From an uncultured Bacteroidales bacterium (GTDB lineage: Bacteria > Bacteroidota > Bacteroidia > Bacteroidales > UBA932), in assembly GCA_927798505.1 (NCBI GenBank), contig CAKMNE010000020.1:1-14101 (forward strand): 14,101 nucleotides of DNA, in the 5' to 3' direction. Of this stretch, positions 7,521 through 14,090 are shown one piece after another. Made by a program: the position numbers and the translations under genes. Position 1 is the first letter of the stretch; the number at the start of each line of letters is the position of its first letter. Under the pieces are notes generated by a model that saw nothing but the letters and a program-made list of their open reading frames with translations, was not told the DNA's origin and searched no databases.

Positions 7521-9257
7521 TTATTTGTTAAATCCTTTCCTTGTCAGGAAGTCCCAAACCTGGTCCAGATATGTGTAGCTTCCGGTCCCCGGCGAGCTGT
7601 ACTGCTGGAAACAGTGCTTGCGGGTCGCAAGCGTGTGCAGGTCGCACTGAATGCCCATACTGCGCATTTTTTCCCAGCACTTGACCGAATTCATCGCTGC
7701 CCAGCCGTCCGCATCGCCGTGGAAGAACACCATAGGAGCAGTGTCCATGTCGAAAGAGAATTCGGGAGCGAGAACGGCATCGTCCTCGTTGCCTCCCTGC
7801 TTGTTCGGGGCGTTGAGCCCGTCGGTGAGTGCGTATGCCGGGTAGATTCCGACGCCCCACTGCACATTGCAAGGAAGGTCGTCGATTTTGTCTATTGGCC
7901 AGTATGAGCGGTGTCTTGCGCTTGTGGTTCCCATCAGGGTGAGGTGACCGCCGGCGGAGCAGCCCATAATGCCTATGCGATTCGGGTCGAGTCCGCGCTC
8001 AGCCGCCTCGCTGCGAACCAGGCGGATGGCCCTCTGGAGGTCCTGCCAAGCGGTGGTATGCTTGGCGAGCCCGCTCTGCGGAGCCGGACGCGGAGTGCGG
8101 TACTTGAGTGTCACGACTGTCATTCCCTTATCGTTGAAATATCTGCGTGCAGGCACGACCTCAAATCCGTCAGGGTTGTTTCCGGTATAGCTTCCGCCCG
8201 AGTAGATTATCTGTATTGCCTTGGTAGTCAGATTCTTAGGTAAGTGCCATTCGATGTATGGCTCGCACTGTTTAGGCTGGACGTCAGGCATCTTGCCTTC
8301 CGGCCAGATGCTTTCCTTGATCACTTCAGCCCTTGAGTCATCGGTTCCCCTGTCCATATTGTACTGCTCAGGCTCGAGAGGACCCATATAGCCCATCTGG
8401 CGCATAAACTCGACTCCCCTTTCAAAACCGAAAGCACCGTGACCCTTGTCGGCATAGAGATGAAGTTCTGCAGGAATGCCCATTCTGCGCAACTGCCTGT
8501 AAACCAAGGTGGAAGTCTCAGGTGCATATACATCGCGCGCTCCGTGGTGCAGACTCATAGGGCAGGTCTTTTCGTCAAATTTAAAGACACTGCTGAGTTT
8601 GACGTCAACTCCGTAACCCATTCGGGTCGCAGGGGTTCCGTTCTCCGCATCGGTGGTGCCGTAAGCAGGTGCGTTTACAATTGCCCAGTTGATATGGCAA
8701 GGCAGTTCGTCAATTTTGTCAATCGGTGCGTATGATGCTGTCTGTGAGCTTGTTGCGAGCAGCAGAGCCAGATGCGAGCCGGCAGACATGGAGATGGTTC
8801 CTATCTTTTCCGGATCAAATCCGCGCTTCTCGGCATCGTTGCGCACAAGTCTTACTGCCCTCTGTCCATCCTCCCAGGCGCTCTGATAGATTGGAAGTCC
8901 CTCGGGTCTCGGGGTCCTGTAAACCAGATTCACGCACTGGAATCCGAGCTCGGTGAGTTTTTCGGACCATTCCTTTATGAGATTGACGTCGCAGCAACTG
9001 GTGTAACTGCCTCCGGAAATGAGAATCATACAGCAGCCGTTGCGCCTGGAGGCCTCTGGAGCGTCATACCACTCTATATAAGGATTGCGATGCTTTTCCG
9101 GCCTGAATCCTTCCTTTCTTGACACATCGGTCATAGCTCCGATCTGATGTTCCTGATAATCAGGCATCTTGCCCTTAGGCCACAGATTCACCCTCTCATT
9201 GGCAAACGCACATACTGAAAGAAGTATGCTCAAACTGATAAGGAATGTTCTTTTCAT
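7521..9257 (-). CDS. Secreted tandem-domain alpha/beta hydrolase (probable carbohydrate esterase)
   Basis: I place the start at the ATG at 9257, giving 578 residues that begin directly with a signal peptide (MKRTFLISLSILLSVCAFA, 1-19); an in-frame TTG at 9266 is less likely. The mature protein is an internal duplication of about 270-residue alpha/beta-hydrolase domains. Domain 1 (about 21-300) has SGGSY (81-85), nucleophile S158 in SMSAG, D242 in HGARD and H273 in KGHGAF. Domain 2 (about 316-578) has SGGSY (353-357), S434 in GCSAG, D517 in HGDAD and H548 in RKHCF. The shared phrases WP-GKMPD, PYIEW, YRTPRP, RLVR and PIDKID mark the duplication. Both triads look complete. Related Bacteroidota enzymes are acetyl-xylan or feruloyl esterase-like and act on plant polysaccharides; specificity here is inference. 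It is the first gene of an operon with the nitroreductase and is transcribed divergently from asnB. Confidence 0.88.
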   Translation of the reverse strand: MKRTFLISLSILLSVCAFANERVNLWPKGKMPDYQEHQIGAMTDVSRKEGFRPEKHRNPYIEWYDAPEASRRNGCCMILISGGSYTSCCDVNLIKEWSEKLTELGFQCVNLVYRTPRPEGLPIYQSAWEDGQRAVRLVRNDAEKRGFDPEKIGTISMSAGSHLALLLATSSQTASYAPIDKIDELPCHINWAIVNAPAYGTTDAENGTPATRMGYGVDVKLSSVFKFDEKTCPMSLHHGARDVYAPETSTLVYRQLRRMGIPAELHLYADKGHGAFGFERGVEFMRQMGYMGPLEPEQYNMDRGTDDSRAEVIKESIWPEGKMPDVQPKQCEPYIEWHLPKNLTTKAIQIIYSGGSYTGNNPDGFEVVPARRYFNDKGMTVVTLKYRTPRPAPQSGLAKHTTAWQDLQRAIRLVRSEAAERGLDPNRIGIMGCSAGGHLTLMGTTSARHRSYWPIDKIDDLPCNVQWGVGIYPAYALTDGLNAPNKQGGNEDDAVLAPEFSFDMDTAPMVFFHGDADGWAAMNSVKCWEKMRSMGIQCDLHTLATRKHCFQQYSSPGTGSYTYLDQVWDFLTRKGFNK

Positions 9258-9285
9258 CGTGTTCAATTTTTATGTAGTTGCAGCA

Positions 9286-9293
9286 CAAAATTA
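9286..9293 (-). promoter_or_regulatory. Candidate -7 promoter element for the esterase operon
   Basis: On the minus strand this reads TAATTTTG, a full match to the Bacteroides -7 consensus TAnnTTTG, about 29 bp before the esterase ATG. That would give a 5' UTR of roughly 20 nt. The expected TTTG at -33 is not clearly present. Confidence 0.4.
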
Positions 9294-9311
9294 GTAAAAA
9301 AATTCTCCATT

Positions 9312-9434
9312 ATGATTAGAACGATATTTGATTTATTAAAAGTTTTGACTAATATTGCAAACAGAATGAAGCAGAACAATAATAATAACGGTAATCTCAA
9401 TCTTTCCGGTAATAATCGGAATCTTTCGTTGTGA
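9312..9434 (+). CDS. Asparagine-rich leader peptide of asnB
   Basis: The ATG at 9312 opens 40 codons ending in TGA at 9432-9434, 106 bp before asnB. Twelve codons are Asn: residues 14, 17, 22-26, 28, 30, 34, 35 and 37. The core reads QNNNNNGNLN and continues SGNNRNLSL to the stop. An in-frame ATG at 9366 would give a 22-residue peptide with 10 Asn; the best promoter match (9327-9357) favours this shorter form, which is also closer in length to known leader peptides. Known principle: leader peptides rich in the amino acid made by the downstream enzyme (as in trp, his, leu, thr and ilv operons) sense the charged tRNA by ribosome stalling. The next gene makes asparagine, and an intrinsic terminator lies between. 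I infer that charged tRNA-Asn is sensed. The peptide itself probably has no other function. Which start is used is open. Confidence 0.65.
   Translation: MIRTIFDLLKVLTNIANRMKQNNNNNGNLNLSGNNRNLSL
9327..9357 (+). promoter_or_regulatory. Candidate promoter of the asnB leader
   Basis: TTTG at 9327-9330, a 19-base spacer, then TAATATTG at 9350-9357 matches the Bacteroides TTTG-N19-21-TAnnTTTG pattern at 9 of 10 fixed positions. The predicted transcript would start near 9361-9365, just before the ATG at 9366. If true, the leader peptide is the 22-residue form on an almost leaderless RNA; if not, a weaker promoter further left serves the 40-codon form. Confidence 0.4.
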
Positions 9435-9499
9435 GCTGCCGGCATTTGAGTTTCGCGCTTTGTTGAAGTGTTCCGGCCCCGAAAAGGACCGGTTTTTTT
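9406..9499 (+). promoter_or_regulatory. asnB transcription attenuator (alternative RNA hairpins)
   Basis: Four CCGG-containing segments can pair in mutually exclusive ways. Segment 1 is CCGGTA (9406-9411, inside the leader ORF). Segment 2 is TGCCGG (9437-9442, just after the leader stop). Segment 3 is CCGGC (9473-9477). Segment 4 is CCGG (9489-9492). Pairing 1:2 gives 6 bp including one G-U. Pairing 2:3 gives a 5-bp GC stem that blocks the terminator. Pairing 3:4 is the terminator. A ribosome stalled on the Asn codons would mask segment 1 and allow 2:3, so asnB is read. A ribosome that reaches the stop codon would cover segment 2 and leave 3:4, so transcription stops. Pairings were found by eye, without energy calculation. 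Confidence 0.6.
9473..9499 (+). terminator. Intrinsic terminator in the asnB leader
   Basis: CCGG (9473-9476) pairs with CCGG (9489-9492), and CC (9478-9479) pairs with GG (9486-9487) across one C-A mismatch, closing a small A-rich loop. Seven consecutive T follow (9493-9499). It lies 41 bp before the asnB start, inside the leader, where it would act only as an attenuator. Confidence 0.65.
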
Positions 9500-9540
9500 G
9501 TTGAAAATGTAGTGTAACCAAATAAAACAGCTCAAAAAAA

Positions 9541-11217
9541 ATGTGTGGATTTGTAGGAATCTTCGGAATGAAGGATTGTTCAGTTGACTGGAGAACAAAA
9601 GCTCTTAAGATGTCGGCAAAGATCAGACACCGCGGACCGGACTGGAGCGGTATCTATGCCGGAAAGAATTGCATTCTCGCTCACGAGAGACTGGCAATCG
9701 TGGACCCGCTTTCCGGAGGGCAGCCGCTGTATTCTCCCGACCGCAGCAAGGTGCTGGCAGTCAACGGAGAGATTTATAACCATCAGGCAATAAGGGATGA
9801 ACTTGCAGGCCAGTACTCTTTCAGCACGGGTTCGGACTGCGAAGTCATTCTGGCTCTTTACGAAAAGAAGGGTCTGGACTTTCTCGAGGACATAAACGGA
9901 ATCTATGCATTCGCCCTTTATGACAGCGAAAAGGACGCTTTCCTGGTCGCCCGCGACCCTATCGGAGTTATCCCTCTTTATATTGGTCACGACGCTGACG
10001 GAACCGTTTACGTTGCCAGCGAGCTCAAGGCTCTGGAAGGATTCTGCGACAGCTACGAGCCTTTCCTTCCGGGTCATTACTACTGGAGCAAGGACGGAGA
10101 GATGAAGCGCTGGTACAAGCGCGACTGGTTCGAGTATGACGCGGTCAAGGACAATCCTGCTGACGTGCAGGAGCTTCGCGAAGCCCTCATTGCGGCGGTC
10201 AAGCGCCAGCTTATGTCGGACGTGCCTTACGGAGTGCTGCTCAGTGGAGGTCTAGACTCTTCGATTACCAGCGCAATCGCCGCCCGCTTCGCCCAGAACC
10301 GCGTTGAAGACGACAGCCGCACCGAGGCCTGGTGGCCGAGGCTGCACAGCTTCGCGGTGGGTCTCAAGGGGGCTCCGGACCTCGCGAAGGCAAAGGAGAT
10401 GGCAGAATTTCTCGGAACCGTCCACCACGAAGTGAACTATACCGTCCAGGAAGGACTGGACGCCATTAGGGACGTAATCTATCATATTGAAACATACGAC
10501 GTTACAACCATCAGGGCATCGACGCCTATGTACCTGCTCGCCCGCGTAATCAAGAGTATGGGAATCAAGATGGTCCTGTCCGGCGAGGGTTCTGACGAAA
10601 TCTTCGGCGGCTACCTGTACTTCCATAAGGCACCGTCCGCGCGCGACCTGCACGAGGAAACCGTCCGCAAGCTGGGCAAGCTCTACCAGTACGACTGCCT
10701 GCGCGCCAACAAGTCGCTCGCCGCATGGGGAGTCGAGGGCAGGGTCCCTTTCCTCGATAAAGAATTCCTCGACGTGGCAATGAGGCTCAATCCTCAGGCA
10801 AAGATGTGCCCGGGTTCCGTAATCGAGAAGAAGATACTCCGTGAGGCCTTTGAAGATATGCTGCTGCCGTCCGTTGCCTGGAGGCAGAAGGAACAATTCT
10901 CCGACGGAGTCGGATACAGCTGGATAGACTCGCTCAAGGCGGTTGCAGAGTCTTCGGTAAGCGACGAGCAGATGGCGCACGCTGCCGAGCGCTTCCCTAT
11001 CAACCCTCCGATGAACAAGGAAGAGTATTGTTACAGAAGCATTTTCGAAGAGCATTTCCCGAGCGAATCCGCCGCACGCAGCGTACCGAGCGTACCGAGC
11101 GTCGCCTGCTCGTCAGCGGTTGCTCTCGAATGGGATGCGTCATTCAAGAATCTCAACGATCCGAGCGGCCGCGCCGTCGCAGGAGTCCACAACGAAGCCT
11201 ACGTTTCCGCCGAATAG
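9541..11217 (+). CDS. asnB: Asparagine synthetase B (glutamine-hydrolysing)
   Basis: This 558-residue protein is almost the length of E. coli AsnB (554). Met-Cys at the start leaves C2 as the N-terminal nucleophile of the class II glutaminase domain. Other glutaminase residues are present: R50 in HERLAIVD, NGEIYNH (75-81) and GSD (97-99). The synthetase domain has the ATP-pyrophosphatase loop SGGLDSS (235-241) and GEGSDE (348-353), followed by GVEGRVPFLD (397-406). The C-terminal PSVACSS and DPSGRAV segments are also kept. It makes asparagine from aspartate, glutamine and ATP in the cytoplasm. The bases before the ATG are a run of A with no Shine-Dalgarno sequence. No other gene shares its transcript. 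Upstream lies an Asn-rich leader with an attenuator, so expression is probably switched on when asparaginyl-tRNA is scarce. A 9-bp tandem duplication adds one SVP unit near residues 514-519. Confidence 0.97.
   Translation: MCGFVGIFGMKDCSVDWRTKALKMSAKIRHRGPDWSGIYAGKNCILAHERLAIVDPLSGGQPLYSPDRSKVLAVNGEIYNHQAIRDELAGQYSFSTGSDCEVILALYEKKGLDFLEDINGIYAFALYDSEKDAFLVARDPIGVIPLYIGHDADGTVYVASELKALEGFCDSYEPFLPGHYYWSKDGEMKRWYKRDWFEYDAVKDNPADVQELREALIAAVKRQLMSDVPYGVLLSGGLDSSITSAIAARFAQNRVEDDSRTEAWWPRLHSFAVGLKGAPDLAKAKEMAEFLGTVHHEVNYTVQEGLDAIRDVIYHIETYDVTTIRASTPMYLLARVIKSMGIKMVLSGEGSDEIFGGYLYFHKAPSARDLHEETVRKLGKLYQYDCLRANKSLAAWGVEGRVPFLDKEFLDVAMRLNPQAKMCPGSVIEKKILREAFEDMLLPSVAWRQKEQFSDGVGYSWIDSLKAVAESSVSDEQMAHAAERFPINPPMNKEEYCYRSIFEEHFPSESAARSVPSVPSVACSSAVALEWDASFKNLNDPSGRAVAGVHNEAYVSAE
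11080..11102 (+). repeat. 9-bp tandem repeat inside asnB
   Basis: AGCGTACCG occurs twice in a row and begins a third time (AGCGT). It encodes SVP-SVP-SV just before the conserved ACSS of the AsnB C-terminus. It keeps the frame and looks like slippage in a tolerant surface segment. Confidence 0.8.
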
Positions 11218-11289: not shown

Positions 11290-12423
11290 TTATTTGCCGA
11301 GCAGCTGTTTTATGAACTTGACATCGGGGAAGAAGCGGCCGGCTATAACACGGATTACGGTGTAGGCCGGGATGGCGGCAACCATTCCGAACATACCGCC
11401 AAGGTTGCCGGCAAGCAGCATCACGATGAAAATCTCAAGCGGAGTAGCCTGGATCGAGGTCGAGTAGATGAATGGCTGGAGGAAGAAATTGTCAACCATC
11501 TGGGCGACGACGAATATGGCTATGAGTATGATGACAAAGACCCAGAAGTTCACGTCAAGACCGAGCGAACCGCCGCTGCAGTAGCGGAGGGTGACACCCA
11601 TCACCGTTCCGACAACGCCGCCGATGATAGGACCGAGATAAGGAATGACATTGAGCAGGCCTGCAAGGAAGCCCACGCCTATCGCTGTCTCGAAGTCAAG
11701 TCTGGCCACGGCCCAAAGTCCCAGAAAATCAATGAGTCCGACACAGCTCATCTCGATGAATAGTCCGATGAAGTAACGCGAGAGCAGGTGCTCTACGTCC
11801 CCTATCGCAGACGTAACTTTCTCTTCCATACGGTCAGGCGAGAGAGCCTTTACAATACGGGTAAACAAGCTCTCGTCCTTGATAAAGAAGAAGGAGATGA
11901 ACACGACGGAGAATATGCCCACGCCGGCATTTGCCACGACAGATGCAAGCGAGCCTATCCAGTTGCCGAACTTGCCAAAGTCAAAGATATTGCGGAGCTG
12001 CTCGATAAGAATCTGCTCAAGTTTGAATCCCGGGGCAAGGTTGAACTTGTCGATAAGGAAACGGTTGATGTTAGCAAGGCTCGTGGAGATGGTTCCGAGC
12101 GATGTTCCGCTGGCAAGGGCGCTGACTTCCCGCACGACTTCGCTGATTAGAGGCACTATACCGGAAACGGCAGCTGCAAGAATGAGCAGGAGTATGAATA
12201 TGGTAATGACCGCAAGCAGCCAGTCCGGTGCTCGGTGACCCTTGACAGTTATCTTTCTGAGCAGTCTCATCACAGGCTGTGAAATAAGGCTGAGCACACC
12301 GGACAATATAATATAGATCAGCACGTTGCTGAAATATCTGCAGACCACGAACAGTATTGCGGCAATCGCGCCGTAGTATAGCAGACGGGACAGTTTTTCA
12401 GTATAGTTGTTGCTTTTCTCCAT
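11290..12423 (-). CDS. AI-2E/PerM-family membrane transporter
   Basis: This 377-residue protein has the hydrophobic pattern of the AI-2E transporter (PerM/YdbI) family. Two membrane segments lie in residues 15-55, one at about 68-92, then a polar helical region (93-160). A block of segments follows: about 160-181, 217-240 and 244-275, 292-316 and 328-360. The family signatures GLLNVIPYLGP (255-265) and DNFFLQPFIYSTSIQATPLE (311-330) are clear. Members of the family have been linked to export of signalling molecules or to Na+/H+ antiport; substrate cannot be assigned from sequence, and the AI-2 name should not be taken as function. The gene converges with asnB and is divergent from the POT transporter, with 101 bp between the two start codons. 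It appears to be a single-gene unit. Confidence 0.9.
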   Translation of the reverse strand: MEKSNNYTEKLSRLLYYGAIAAILFVVCRYFSNVLIYIILSGVLSLISQPVMRLLRKITVKGHRAPDWLLAVITIFILLLILAAAVSGIVPLISEVVREVSALASGTSLGTISTSLANINRFLIDKFNLAPGFKLEQILIEQLRNIFDFGKFGNWIGSLASVVANAGVGIFSVVFISFFFIKDESLFTRIVKALSPDRMEEKVTSAIGDVEHLLSRYFIGLFIEMSCVGLIDFLGLWAVARLDFETAIGVGFLAGLLNVIPYLGPIIGGVVGTVMGVTLRYCSGGSLGLDVNFWVFVIILIAIFVVAQMVDNFFLQPFIYSTSIQATPLEIFIVMLLAGNLGGMFGMVAAIPAYTVIRVIAGRFFPDVKFIKQLLGK

Positions 12424-12524: not shown

Positions 12525-14090
12525 ATGTTTAAAGGACATCCAAAAGGACTTGTAGCCGCCGCCCTGAGCAATATGGGCGAAAGGTTTGGCTACTACATCA
12601 TGAACGCGGTCCTGCTGCTCTTCCTTTGTTCCAAGTTCGGTCTTAGTGACAGCACTGCAGGCGTAATCTACTCCATCTTCTACAGCGGCATCTATGTATT
12701 GTCACTTGTCGGAGGTATAATCGCCGACCGCACAAGCAATTACAAAGGTACCATCATGACCGGCCTCATCGTAATGGCAGTCGGTTACCTGGCTCTCGCA
12801 TTCCCTATTATGGCGACCTCCGAGAACCACACGATGCTGCTTGTATTTACCTGCTTCGCACTGCTTCTCATCGCCATCGGCAACGGTCTGTTCAAGGGCA
12901 ACCTCCAGGTAATCGTAGGCCAGATGTATGACAATCTCGAGGCTGAGGCAGCCAAGAAGGGAGAAAAGGAACTTCAGCTCGCAAAGAGCAAGCGTGACTC
13001 CGGTTTCCAGATCTTCTACGTATTTATCAACATCGGTGGACTCCTTGCTCCGTTCGTTGCTCCTATGCTCCGCAGCTGGTGGCTCAGGGTACACGATATG
13101 GTGTACAATGCGCAGCTCCCTGCCCTCTGCCACAAGTTCCTCAACACCGGAGAAATAGACGCCAACCTCGGAACGCTCATCGCCTCTTCCAATACCGGAG
13201 CAGCGGTGGATATGGCAAACCTCGATGCCGTGGGACAGTTCTGCACCAGCTACCTTGACGTATTCAACACAGGTATCCATTACTCCTTCTTCGCCAGCGT
13301 TGCTGCGATGGCTATCTCTCTAATAATCTTCTTCCTCTGCAAGAAGGGCTTCCCTAATCCTGCAAAGAAAGAAGTTGCCGCAGTACAGGGATACACCGCC
13401 GAGGAAAAGGTAACCATGGGCAAGGAAATCAAGCAGCGCATGCTCGCCCTCTTCGCAGTGCTCGGCATCGCCGTATTCTTCTGGCTCTCATTCCATCAGA
13501 ACGGACAGTCGCTGTCAGTGTTTGCCCGCGACTTCATCAACACCTCTTCAATTGCTCCGGAAATCTGGCAGGCTGTCAATCCGTTCTTCGTGATTGTGCT
13601 CACCCCTATCATCATGGCCATCTTCGGCGCTCTCGCCAACAAGGGCAAGGTCATCTCCACCCCTCGCAAGATTGCCATCGGTATGGGAATTGCCGGCTGC
13701 GCATACCTCTTCCTGACCATCTTCTCAGCCGTTATGGGCTATCCTTCAGGTGAAGAATTCCGCGCTCTCGACGAGGCTACCCGCCAGGGTATGCTTGCAG
13801 GTCCTTGGGTTCTCATCGTGACATATTTCTTCCTGACCGTAGCGGAGCTCTTCATCTCACCTCTCGGACTCTCGTTCGTTTCCAAGGTGGCTCCTAAGAG
13901 CATGCTCGGTCTCTGCCAGGGACTTTGGCTCGGCGCCACCGCACTCGGAAACCTGCTCATCTGGCTTGGTCCAGTGATGTACAATGCCTGGGACATCCAG
14001 TACTGCTGGCTCGTATTCCTTGTCATCTGCCTCATTTCAATGGGCGTGATGCTCGGTATGGTCAAGTGGCTCGAAAAAGTTACCGGCTAG
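12525..14090 (+). CDS. POT-family (proton-dependent oligopeptide) transporter
   Basis: This 521-residue MFS-fold protein belongs to the POT/PTR2 family. Signatures seen: NMGERFGYY (16-24) in the first helix, in place of ExxERFxYY; DRTSNYKG (68-75) in the loop after helix 2; GNGLFKGN (119-126); FYVFINIGG (164-172), the second PTR2 signature, in helix 5; and FWLSFHQNGQSL (318-329) in helix 7. Family members import di- and tripeptides with protons across the inner membrane. Two oddities: the first Glu of ExxER is Asn16, and about 70 residues (181-250) lie between helices 5 and 6, a loop normally short and predicted here to face the periplasm. A charged stretch (138-158) also enlarges the helix 4-5 loop. 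The stop is 11 bp from the window end, so downstream neighbours are not visible. Peptide import is likely, but the substrate and coupling are not certain. Confidence 0.92.
   Translation: MFKGHPKGLVAAALSNMGERFGYYIMNAVLLLFLCSKFGLSDSTAGVIYSIFYSGIYVLSLVGGIIADRTSNYKGTIMTGLIVMAVGYLALAFPIMATSENHTMLLVFTCFALLLIAIGNGLFKGNLQVIVGQMYDNLEAEAAKKGEKELQLAKSKRDSGFQIFYVFINIGGLLAPFVAPMLRSWWLRVHDMVYNAQLPALCHKFLNTGEIDANLGTLIASSNTGAAVDMANLDAVGQFCTSYLDVFNTGIHYSFFASVAAMAISLIIFFLCKKGFPNPAKKEVAAVQGYTAEEKVTMGKEIKQRMLALFAVLGIAVFFWLSFHQNGQSLSVFARDFINTSSIAPEIWQAVNPFFVIVLTPIIMAIFGALANKGKVISTPRKIAIGMGIAGCAYLFLTIFSAVMGYPSGEEFRALDEATRQGMLAGPWVLIVTYFFLTVAELFISPLGLSFVSKVAPKSMLGLCQGLWLGATALGNLLIWLGPVMYNAWDIQYCWLVFLVICLISMGVMLGMVKWLEKVTG

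Follow-up and report, generated by a model that had tools for sequence, protein, structure and literature searches.

A probable asparagine-sensing, ribosome-mediated attenuator upstream of asnB in an uncultured Bacteroidales bacterium, with patchy recurrence in relatives

The window (the whole stretch of 14,101 nucleotides analysed here, contig C20) belongs to a draft genome of 1.26 Mb, which is available in 143 contigs and is 65% complete. The genes that frame the region under study are the following:

9541 to 11217, plus strand: asnB, glutamine-hydrolysing asparagine synthetase, 558 aa (NF006949, PF00733, PF13537, PDB 1ct9)
7521 to 9266, minus strand: esterase-like gene, divergent from asnB (profile match, PF20434)
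12525 to 14090, plus strand: oligopeptide:H+ symporter near asnB (profile match, TIGR00924)

In the profile search, the asnB product scored 914.3 bits against NF006949 (asparagine synthase B; cut-off 499), with domain matches to PF00733 and PF13537 and an E-value of 6.7e-257 against the asparagine synthetase B of PDB 1ct9. By the NF006949 match, the gene downstream of the element described below makes the amino acid that this element would sense. The symporter is separated from asnB by a minus-strand gene at 11290-12423, which has a single match, far under the family cut-off. The intergenic gap between the esterase-like gene and asnB amounts to 274 bases and holds a short leader ORF and a hairpin, with the following features:

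9327 to 9357, plus strand: promoter-like site, with -33 TTTG at 9327-9330, a 19-nt spacer and the -7 box TAATATTG at 9350-9357 (consensus match)
9366 to 9434, plus strand: leader peptide ORF MKQNNNNNGNLNLSGNNRNLSL, 10 Asn in 22 codons (8 AAT, 2 AAC), with counterparts followed by terminators at 18 further loci
9404 to 9421, plus strand: hairpin TTCCGGT-AATA-ATCGGAA within the Asn codons (terminator scan, folding)
9438 to 9442, plus strand: putative antiterminator arm (region 2), GCCGG, just 3' of the leader stop (complementarity, folding)
9473 to 9477, plus strand: region 3, CCGGC, with two alternative pairing partners, 9438-9442 (antiterminator) and the 3' arm of the terminator (complementarity, folding)
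9473 to 9499, plus strand: intrinsic terminator, hairpin 9473-9492 followed by T7 at 9493-9499 (sequence, folding)

The initial annotation had described an Asn-rich ORF at 9312-9434 on the plus strand (12 Asn in 40 codons, and 10 in 22 from the ATG at 9366, with five in a row), ending 106 nt before the asnB start codon (ATG 9541), and both the composition and the distance were confirmed. The complete frame translates as MIRTIFDLLKVLTNIANRMKQNNNNNGNLNLSGNNRNLSL. Its start at 9312, however, was not upheld: since the promoter-like site at 9327-9357 falls inside this frame, that start is unlikely, and leader translation probably begins at the ATG at 9366. The site was called by its agreement with TTTG-N19-21-TAnnTTTG, which we take to be the Bacteroides promoter consensus, and 1% of base shuffles score equally well; transcription would probably start at about 9361-9366. 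The leader ORF lies between this promoter, recognised by consensus, and the structural gene, and it is short and has many codons for the end product, the Asn content of its 22 codons having a binomial p of 6.6e-8 against the local base composition. In 1.26 Mb of the genome, both strands included, runs of five AAY codons occur at two sites only, of which one is the leader and the other overlaps the start codon of another ORF and is not a leader.

A GC hairpin followed by seven T had also been noted between the ORF and asnB, and it is present at 9473-9499. The hairpin itself (CCGGCCCCGAAAAGGACCGG, 9473-9492) has a folding energy of -7.4 kcal/mol with one internal C-A mismatch, and it was not among the sites listed by a simple terminator scan of the window. 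The gene upstream lies on the minus strand and is divergent, and thus there is no annotated plus-strand gene nearby for the terminator to serve. What the simple scan did list was 9404-9421 (one site, versus 1.1 in shuffles), a hairpin that might act as a pause or protector element; hairpins inside the Asn codons were also seen in the folds of L021, L022, L023 and L025. Overall, leader folding was not more stable than that of shuffled sequences (z -0.20, and -0.33, +0.74, -0.56 and -0.39).

The recurrence of this arrangement was surveyed in 242 asnB upstream regions (227 non-redundant), comprising 90 from the genus of the window, 72 from the rest of the order and 80 from named contigs, the last partly overlapping the others. 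AsnB was found in 101 of 400 genomes of the genus and in 80 of 295 genomes in the rest-of-order search. Excluded from the set were 13 of the 103 AsnB places of the genus, in which the match did not reach residue 1 (L018 among them), and the rest-of-order places G624, G661, G470 and G676; L019 and L020 (52-54% AsnB) lie outside the 242. A region was counted when an ATG ORF of 10-60 codons, whose end lay 20-200 nt from the gene on its 5' side, contained 6 or more Asn within 22 codons and had, 3' of it, a hairpin of -7 kcal/mol or better followed by a U-run. The initial annotation had proposed to look upstream of asnB for conserved Asn runs and a terminator that persist as the DNA diverges, and the outcome was positive, 19 of the 242 regions satisfying the rule (15 from the genus, 2 from the rest of the order and 2 named). 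Without redundancy the count is 17 of 227, since L093 repeats L011 and L135 repeats L035, and by our own grouping the positive loci are 12 lineages, one of them in another family. In a set of 19 leader loci studied in detail, the window included, an intrinsic terminator lies between leader and gene. The weaker leader cases are L062, L065 and L002; L002, which has 5 Asn and in which the rule detects no terminator, was kept out of the leader-plus-terminator count, and so was L271, which lacks a terminator as well.

Across these relatives, leader peptides and DNA diverge, while Asn-richness and the terminator are kept. The leader peptide reads MILSNNNAANLNQINNNLINNLLCSGR in L021, MRNVNNINNYGIRINNNLDNAYMHIRR in L022, MMKLNNINVNNSWINNINSANSLVQ in L023, MMFRANNNNNNYMQNNNYILPLYCVVLPAGHTK in L029, MFLFNQQNNQNNNQNQQVLIASVYYSPVGNMM in L035 (same contig as Bacteroidales bacterium Horse_feces75), MTGFSWNKQNNNNQNQNQNQVLGLLCSIHQS in L009, MARILAYTANNNQNNQQNQNQNNNQVRMVTSFGQRES in L179 (Bacteroidaceae bacterium RGIG6538) and MYLLNNNNLFNYNPFQW in L232, which belongs to another family; in that family all three genomes examined have an Asn-rich short ORF before asnB (L232, L238 and L335). 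In the detailed set of 19 leader loci, the hairpins located 3' of the leader range from -7.4 to -23.4 kcal/mol and are accompanied by U-runs, the leader-to-asnB distance is 67-153 nt, and the Asn codons are a mixture of AAT and AAC interspersed with other residues. When the enrichment of each residue was scored over the 227 loci at p<1e-4, Asn was enriched at 7 loci, Ala at 2 and Glu, Ser, Trp and Phe at 1 each, and no locus was Asn-enriched at this threshold in 20 dinucleotide-shuffled sets. Elsewhere in the Bacteroidota, 28 of 33 additional long asnB places were scanned, 10 second and more distant copies being excluded; L341 and L362 have Asn-rich short ORFs with no hairpin by eye and were not counted. 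Their ORFs (MKVLIHICTRINNNNRLNTL and MIFTFNNNNSNCLFAS) stand close before asnB and may reflect chance or a different mode of control.

Other genes served as controls. The rule that found Asn leaders at asnB found none upstream of asnA (0/30) or hisG (0/28). The best ORF before asnA had 5 Asn in 22 codons (30 of 58 asnA places scanned), and no ORF before asnS exceeded 4 Asn in 22 codons (30 of 54 asnS places scanned). In hisG of the same genus (L276-L303, 28 genomes), a short ORF with HHH or HHxHH was present in 23 of 28 regions, an example being MKRNLVSIHHHHHIFRIG, and 21 of these 23 were followed by a hairpin and a U-run beginning 50-72 nt after the leader stop. Such His-run ORFs were absent from all 242 asnB and all 30 asnA regions; ORFs with NNN were found in 13 of the 242 asnB regions and in none of the 30 asnA or 28 hisG regions. 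With His runs before hisG and Asn runs before asnB, leader and terminator match the amino acid made downstream in both cases. The hisG loci of the genus point to a histidine attenuator, apparently widespread.

A promoter-like site was detected in 18 of the 19 leader loci, its -7 box ending 4-27 nt 5' of the leader ATG (19 nt in L098, taking the ATG at -203), and base shuffles matched the score of the site in at most 5% of cases at 17 of the 18 loci and in 10% at L232. For L238 the scan found no such site; a TACATTTG box lies 20 nt 5' of the ATG in its sequence. The box-to-ATG distance is 4-8 nt in L001, L021, L022, L023 and L025, which make up the window's closest group, and their message would therefore be leaderless or nearly so. 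As to whether the leader is translated, the close pairs L023/L025, L009/L066, L057/L060 and L062/L065 differ by 15 substitutions, of which 9 are synonymous against about 18% expected (p 3e-4). Between L009 and L057 none of 10 substitutions is synonymous, with two Asn codons lost and one gained; pooling the four close pairs with this one gives 9 of 25 (p 0.025, the comparisons not being independent). Taken from substitutions, the evidence for leader translation is moderate.

The competing antiterminator was modelled at the 19 loci by placing a ribosome on an Asn codon and folding the transcript as far as the last base of the terminator 5' arm. In 15 of the 19, at least half of this arm paired upstream. 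The partner lay around the leader stop in 10 loci (L001, L021, L022, L023, L025, L062, L065, L098, L232 and L238); in 5 others (L009, L035, L057, L060 and L066) it lay within the codon tract or beside it, 31-50 nt 5' of the stop. The modelled antiterminator covered less than half of the arm in L029, L030, L179 and L011. When the ribosome was placed at the stop codon instead, all 19 folds contained the terminator. The codon tract of L009, L057, L060 and L066 pairs with the terminator 5' arm, and a dual coding and structural role is possible there.

The best ungapped complements to the terminator arm gave 13 different arm pairs in 18 loci: GCCGG/CCGGC (window), GGCCGG/CCGGCC, GTCGGT/ACCGAC, GTCGGC/GCCGGC, CCAGTC/GGCTGG, ACCAG/CTGGT, ATCAGTC/GGCTGAT, TGGCCAG/CTGGTCA, ACCAGTC/GGCTGGT, GCCGGTC/GACCGGT, GGGAAG/CTTTCC, GGGGGG/CTTTCC and GCCAGTCT/GGACTGGC. 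The search was bounded by the terminator on one side and by a point 33 nt 5' of the stop on the other (75 nt for L030, for which the stretch was enlarged following the shuffle test), and since each arm was picked as the best complement in this stretch, the place and existence of the arms are partly by construction. Against base shuffles, the duplex energies gave a Fisher p of 1.3e-5 over 13 lineages, of which 5 fall below 0.05 singly; for the window, whose antiterminator is 5 bp, 35% of shuffles pair equally well. When own and swapped terminator arms were compared, the permutation p was a modest 0.025, the own arm ranking 2nd to 7th of 13 and never first because the arms share motifs. An antiterminator that would exclude the terminator under the governance of the leader ribosome is thus supported across lineages, and not by the 5-bp arm of the window alone.

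From these features, we consider it very probable that the element is a ribosome-mediated transcription attenuator, which senses charged tRNA-Asn and controls asnB. As leader Asn codons and terminator recur together in diverged relatives, asparagine production is probably switched on by ribosomes stalling for asparagine. The same had been suggested on first inspection of the locus, and the comparison with relatives lends it support, with a corrected start and a patchy distribution. In this mechanism, transcription would begin a few bases 5' of the ATG at 9366, and the leader would be translated as RNA polymerase advances. With ample Asn-tRNA, the ribosome would get to the stop codon and mask the arm at 9438-9442, upon which the hairpin at 9473-9492 would form and transcription would stop at the T-run near 9499. 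With scarce Asn-tRNA, the ribosome would stall on the Asn codons and leave 9438-9442 unmasked; the free arm could then pair with 9473-9477, so that the terminator would be blocked and asnB transcribed.

Three other explanations were weighed. The leader might be a translated upstream ORF for translational coupling or reinitiation, or might report a general slowing of ribosomes, with the hairpin as an ordinary terminator by which the transcript is trimmed constitutively. Short leader ORFs have indeed been proposed to aid reinitiation, Bacteroidetes included, in the passages of PMC4833913 that bear on the subject, and the leader stop of the window stands 106 nt 5' of asnB. Nevertheless, the leader-to-gene distances given for Bacteroidetes in the same passages peak at 11-14 bp, against the 67-153 nt of the loci studied here. 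Furthermore, the explanation accounts neither for the Asn-richness nor for its absence before the scanned asnA, asnS and hisG genes, and we regard it as very improbable.

The element might also read Gln along with Asn, in which case ribosomes would stall whenever either the product or the substrate of AsnB ran short. At least 6 Gln in 22 codons together with a terminator occur in 5 of the 242 loci, namely L009, L035, L066, L135 and L179 (L135 being on the same contig as L035), all of them also Asn-rich, and Asn-Gln repeats form the leaders of L009, L035, L066 and L179. The leader of the window, however, has one Gln, and in the folds of L009, L057, L060 and L066 the CAG-AAY codons are base-paired to the terminator arm, and this pairing could account for the Gln codons with no sensing involved; as a description of the element, joint reading of the two is highly improbable. 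A narrower version, confined to part of the clade, is unlikely but deserves mention: an Asn-Gln leader would there report on Asn, which AsnB makes, as well as on Gln, from which AsnB takes its nitrogen, the codon repeat of this leader serving also as the antiterminator arm, and the nearly Gln-free leader of the window would be the one-input form.

Hardly credible, finally, is that AAT/AAC repeats of low complexity in A+T-rich intergenic DNA read as Asn by chance, with terminator and promoter belonging to an unrelated small RNA: A+T-rich DNA does favour AAY repeats, and of the two AAYx5 sites in the genome one is no leader, but the Asn excess in the window survives correction for composition (p 6.6e-8), 7 loci are Asn-enriched against 0 in the dinucleotide shuffles, AAT and AAC are mixed with the Asn codons scattered among other residues, Asn is kept at similar positions before asnB while the DNA changes, and leaders with terminators stand at 19 of 242 asnB genes against none at asnA and hisG and at most 4 Asn in 22 codons at asnS (n=30).

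Among known systems, the attenuator reading brings the element closest to the ribosome-mediated attenuators of amino-acid operons, that is, to the leader peptides of his, trp, leu, thr, ilv and phe. It shares with them a leader ORF enriched in codons for the amino acid that the pathway makes, an intrinsic terminator before the gene and an upstream arm able to form an antiterminator; it differs in its asparagine specificity and its asnB target, as well as in its Bacteroidales-type promoter and, in L001, L021, L022, L023 and L025, its very short 5' UTR. The hisG leaders of the same genus are likewise short ORFs carrying a run of the amino acid made downstream, and in 21 of 23 a hairpin with a U-run follows, but they concern histidine and are present at 23 of 28 loci, whereas the Asn leader is found at 18 of the 90 asnB loci of the genus. 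The tRNA-Asn T-boxes of Firmicutes also sense Asn-tRNA and steer Asn genes through a choice between terminator and antiterminator; they bind uncharged tRNA directly and have no leader peptide. At the gathering threshold, Rfam had no match at the leader in the window or in 13 further loci, which speaks against a T-box: the window gave 0 matches, and the 13 relatives gave 2 (a tRNA, and the SRP RNA of L023), neither at the leader.

At E-values up to 1, Rfam matched only Arrc14 and CRISPR-DR22 in the region 9260-9545. The match to Arrc14 (RF02860, an Actinobacillus sRNA) is full-length, at 9343-9506, and reaches 30.1 bits against a gathering threshold of 99 (E 0.0078); it was taken as chance. Arrc14, which is treated as a trans-acting sRNA in the relevant part of PMC4986893, likewise ends in a hairpin and a U-run, which raises the question whether Arrc14 might be a leader RNA.

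In the literature, clues for leader-peptide attenuation before amino-acid operons have come from the transcriptome of Flavobacterium psychrophilum (PMC9723704), a case of the same phylum and mechanism class in whose main text the word asparagine does not appear. A 2010 survey of premature terminators knew leader peptides from Proteobacteria and Actinobacteria only, ermC aside, and added Firmicutes (PMC2965389); its main text likewise lacks the word asparagine. In the searchable text of PMC5864092, PMC12421871 and PMC11282234 asparagine is used in other senses, in that of PMC5009743 the topic is tRNA discrimination against Asn codons, and in that of PMC1262725 the word is absent. No asparagine leader peptide came up in searches of open-access papers; Lopatovskaya et al. 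(2010) and Vitreschak et al. (2004) could contain such a prediction. The asparagine specificity and the asnB target of the candidate are filed here as new within the known ribosome-mediated attenuators. If the reading is true, asparagine would join the amino acids that are gauged by leader-peptide ribosome stalling, in the Bacteroidota and outside the classical examples. Moreover, arms and peptides being replaced within an unchanged logic, it would become possible to study directly how an amino-acid sensor is gained, lost and rewired.

The evolution of such a switch would be visible in its distribution, the leader occurring mainly where asnB stands alone and rarely where a co-directional gene is close. 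The 18 regions of the genus that have the leader, the weaker cases included, comprise 15 of the 25 in which no co-directional ORF was found upstream of asnB, 1 with a co-directional ORF more than 150 nt upstream and 2 of the 63 whose co-directional ORF lies no farther than 150 nt away; a single region was too short. Of the 72 regions from the rest of the order, 2 have the leader, and both belong to the 41 in which a co-directional ORF is absent; in the named set the leader is present in L179 and L135, of 80. Ten leader-less regions of the genus had no co-directional ORF called, and in four of these (L046, L047, L070 and L097) a co-directional gene seems, by eye, to extend as far as asnB. The genes preceding asnB often resemble, again by eye, ammonium-transporter, PII-type or glutamate-synthase small-subunit genes. 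Eight loci encode an AsnB with 86-90% identity to that of the window; of these, the leader is present in L021, L022, L023 and L025, and no Asn leader was found in L024, L026, L027 and L028. The box TAATATTG is kept in L024 and L026, which both lack the Asn leader, and in L026 a terminator follows right after it, an arrangement that looks like loss of the switch.
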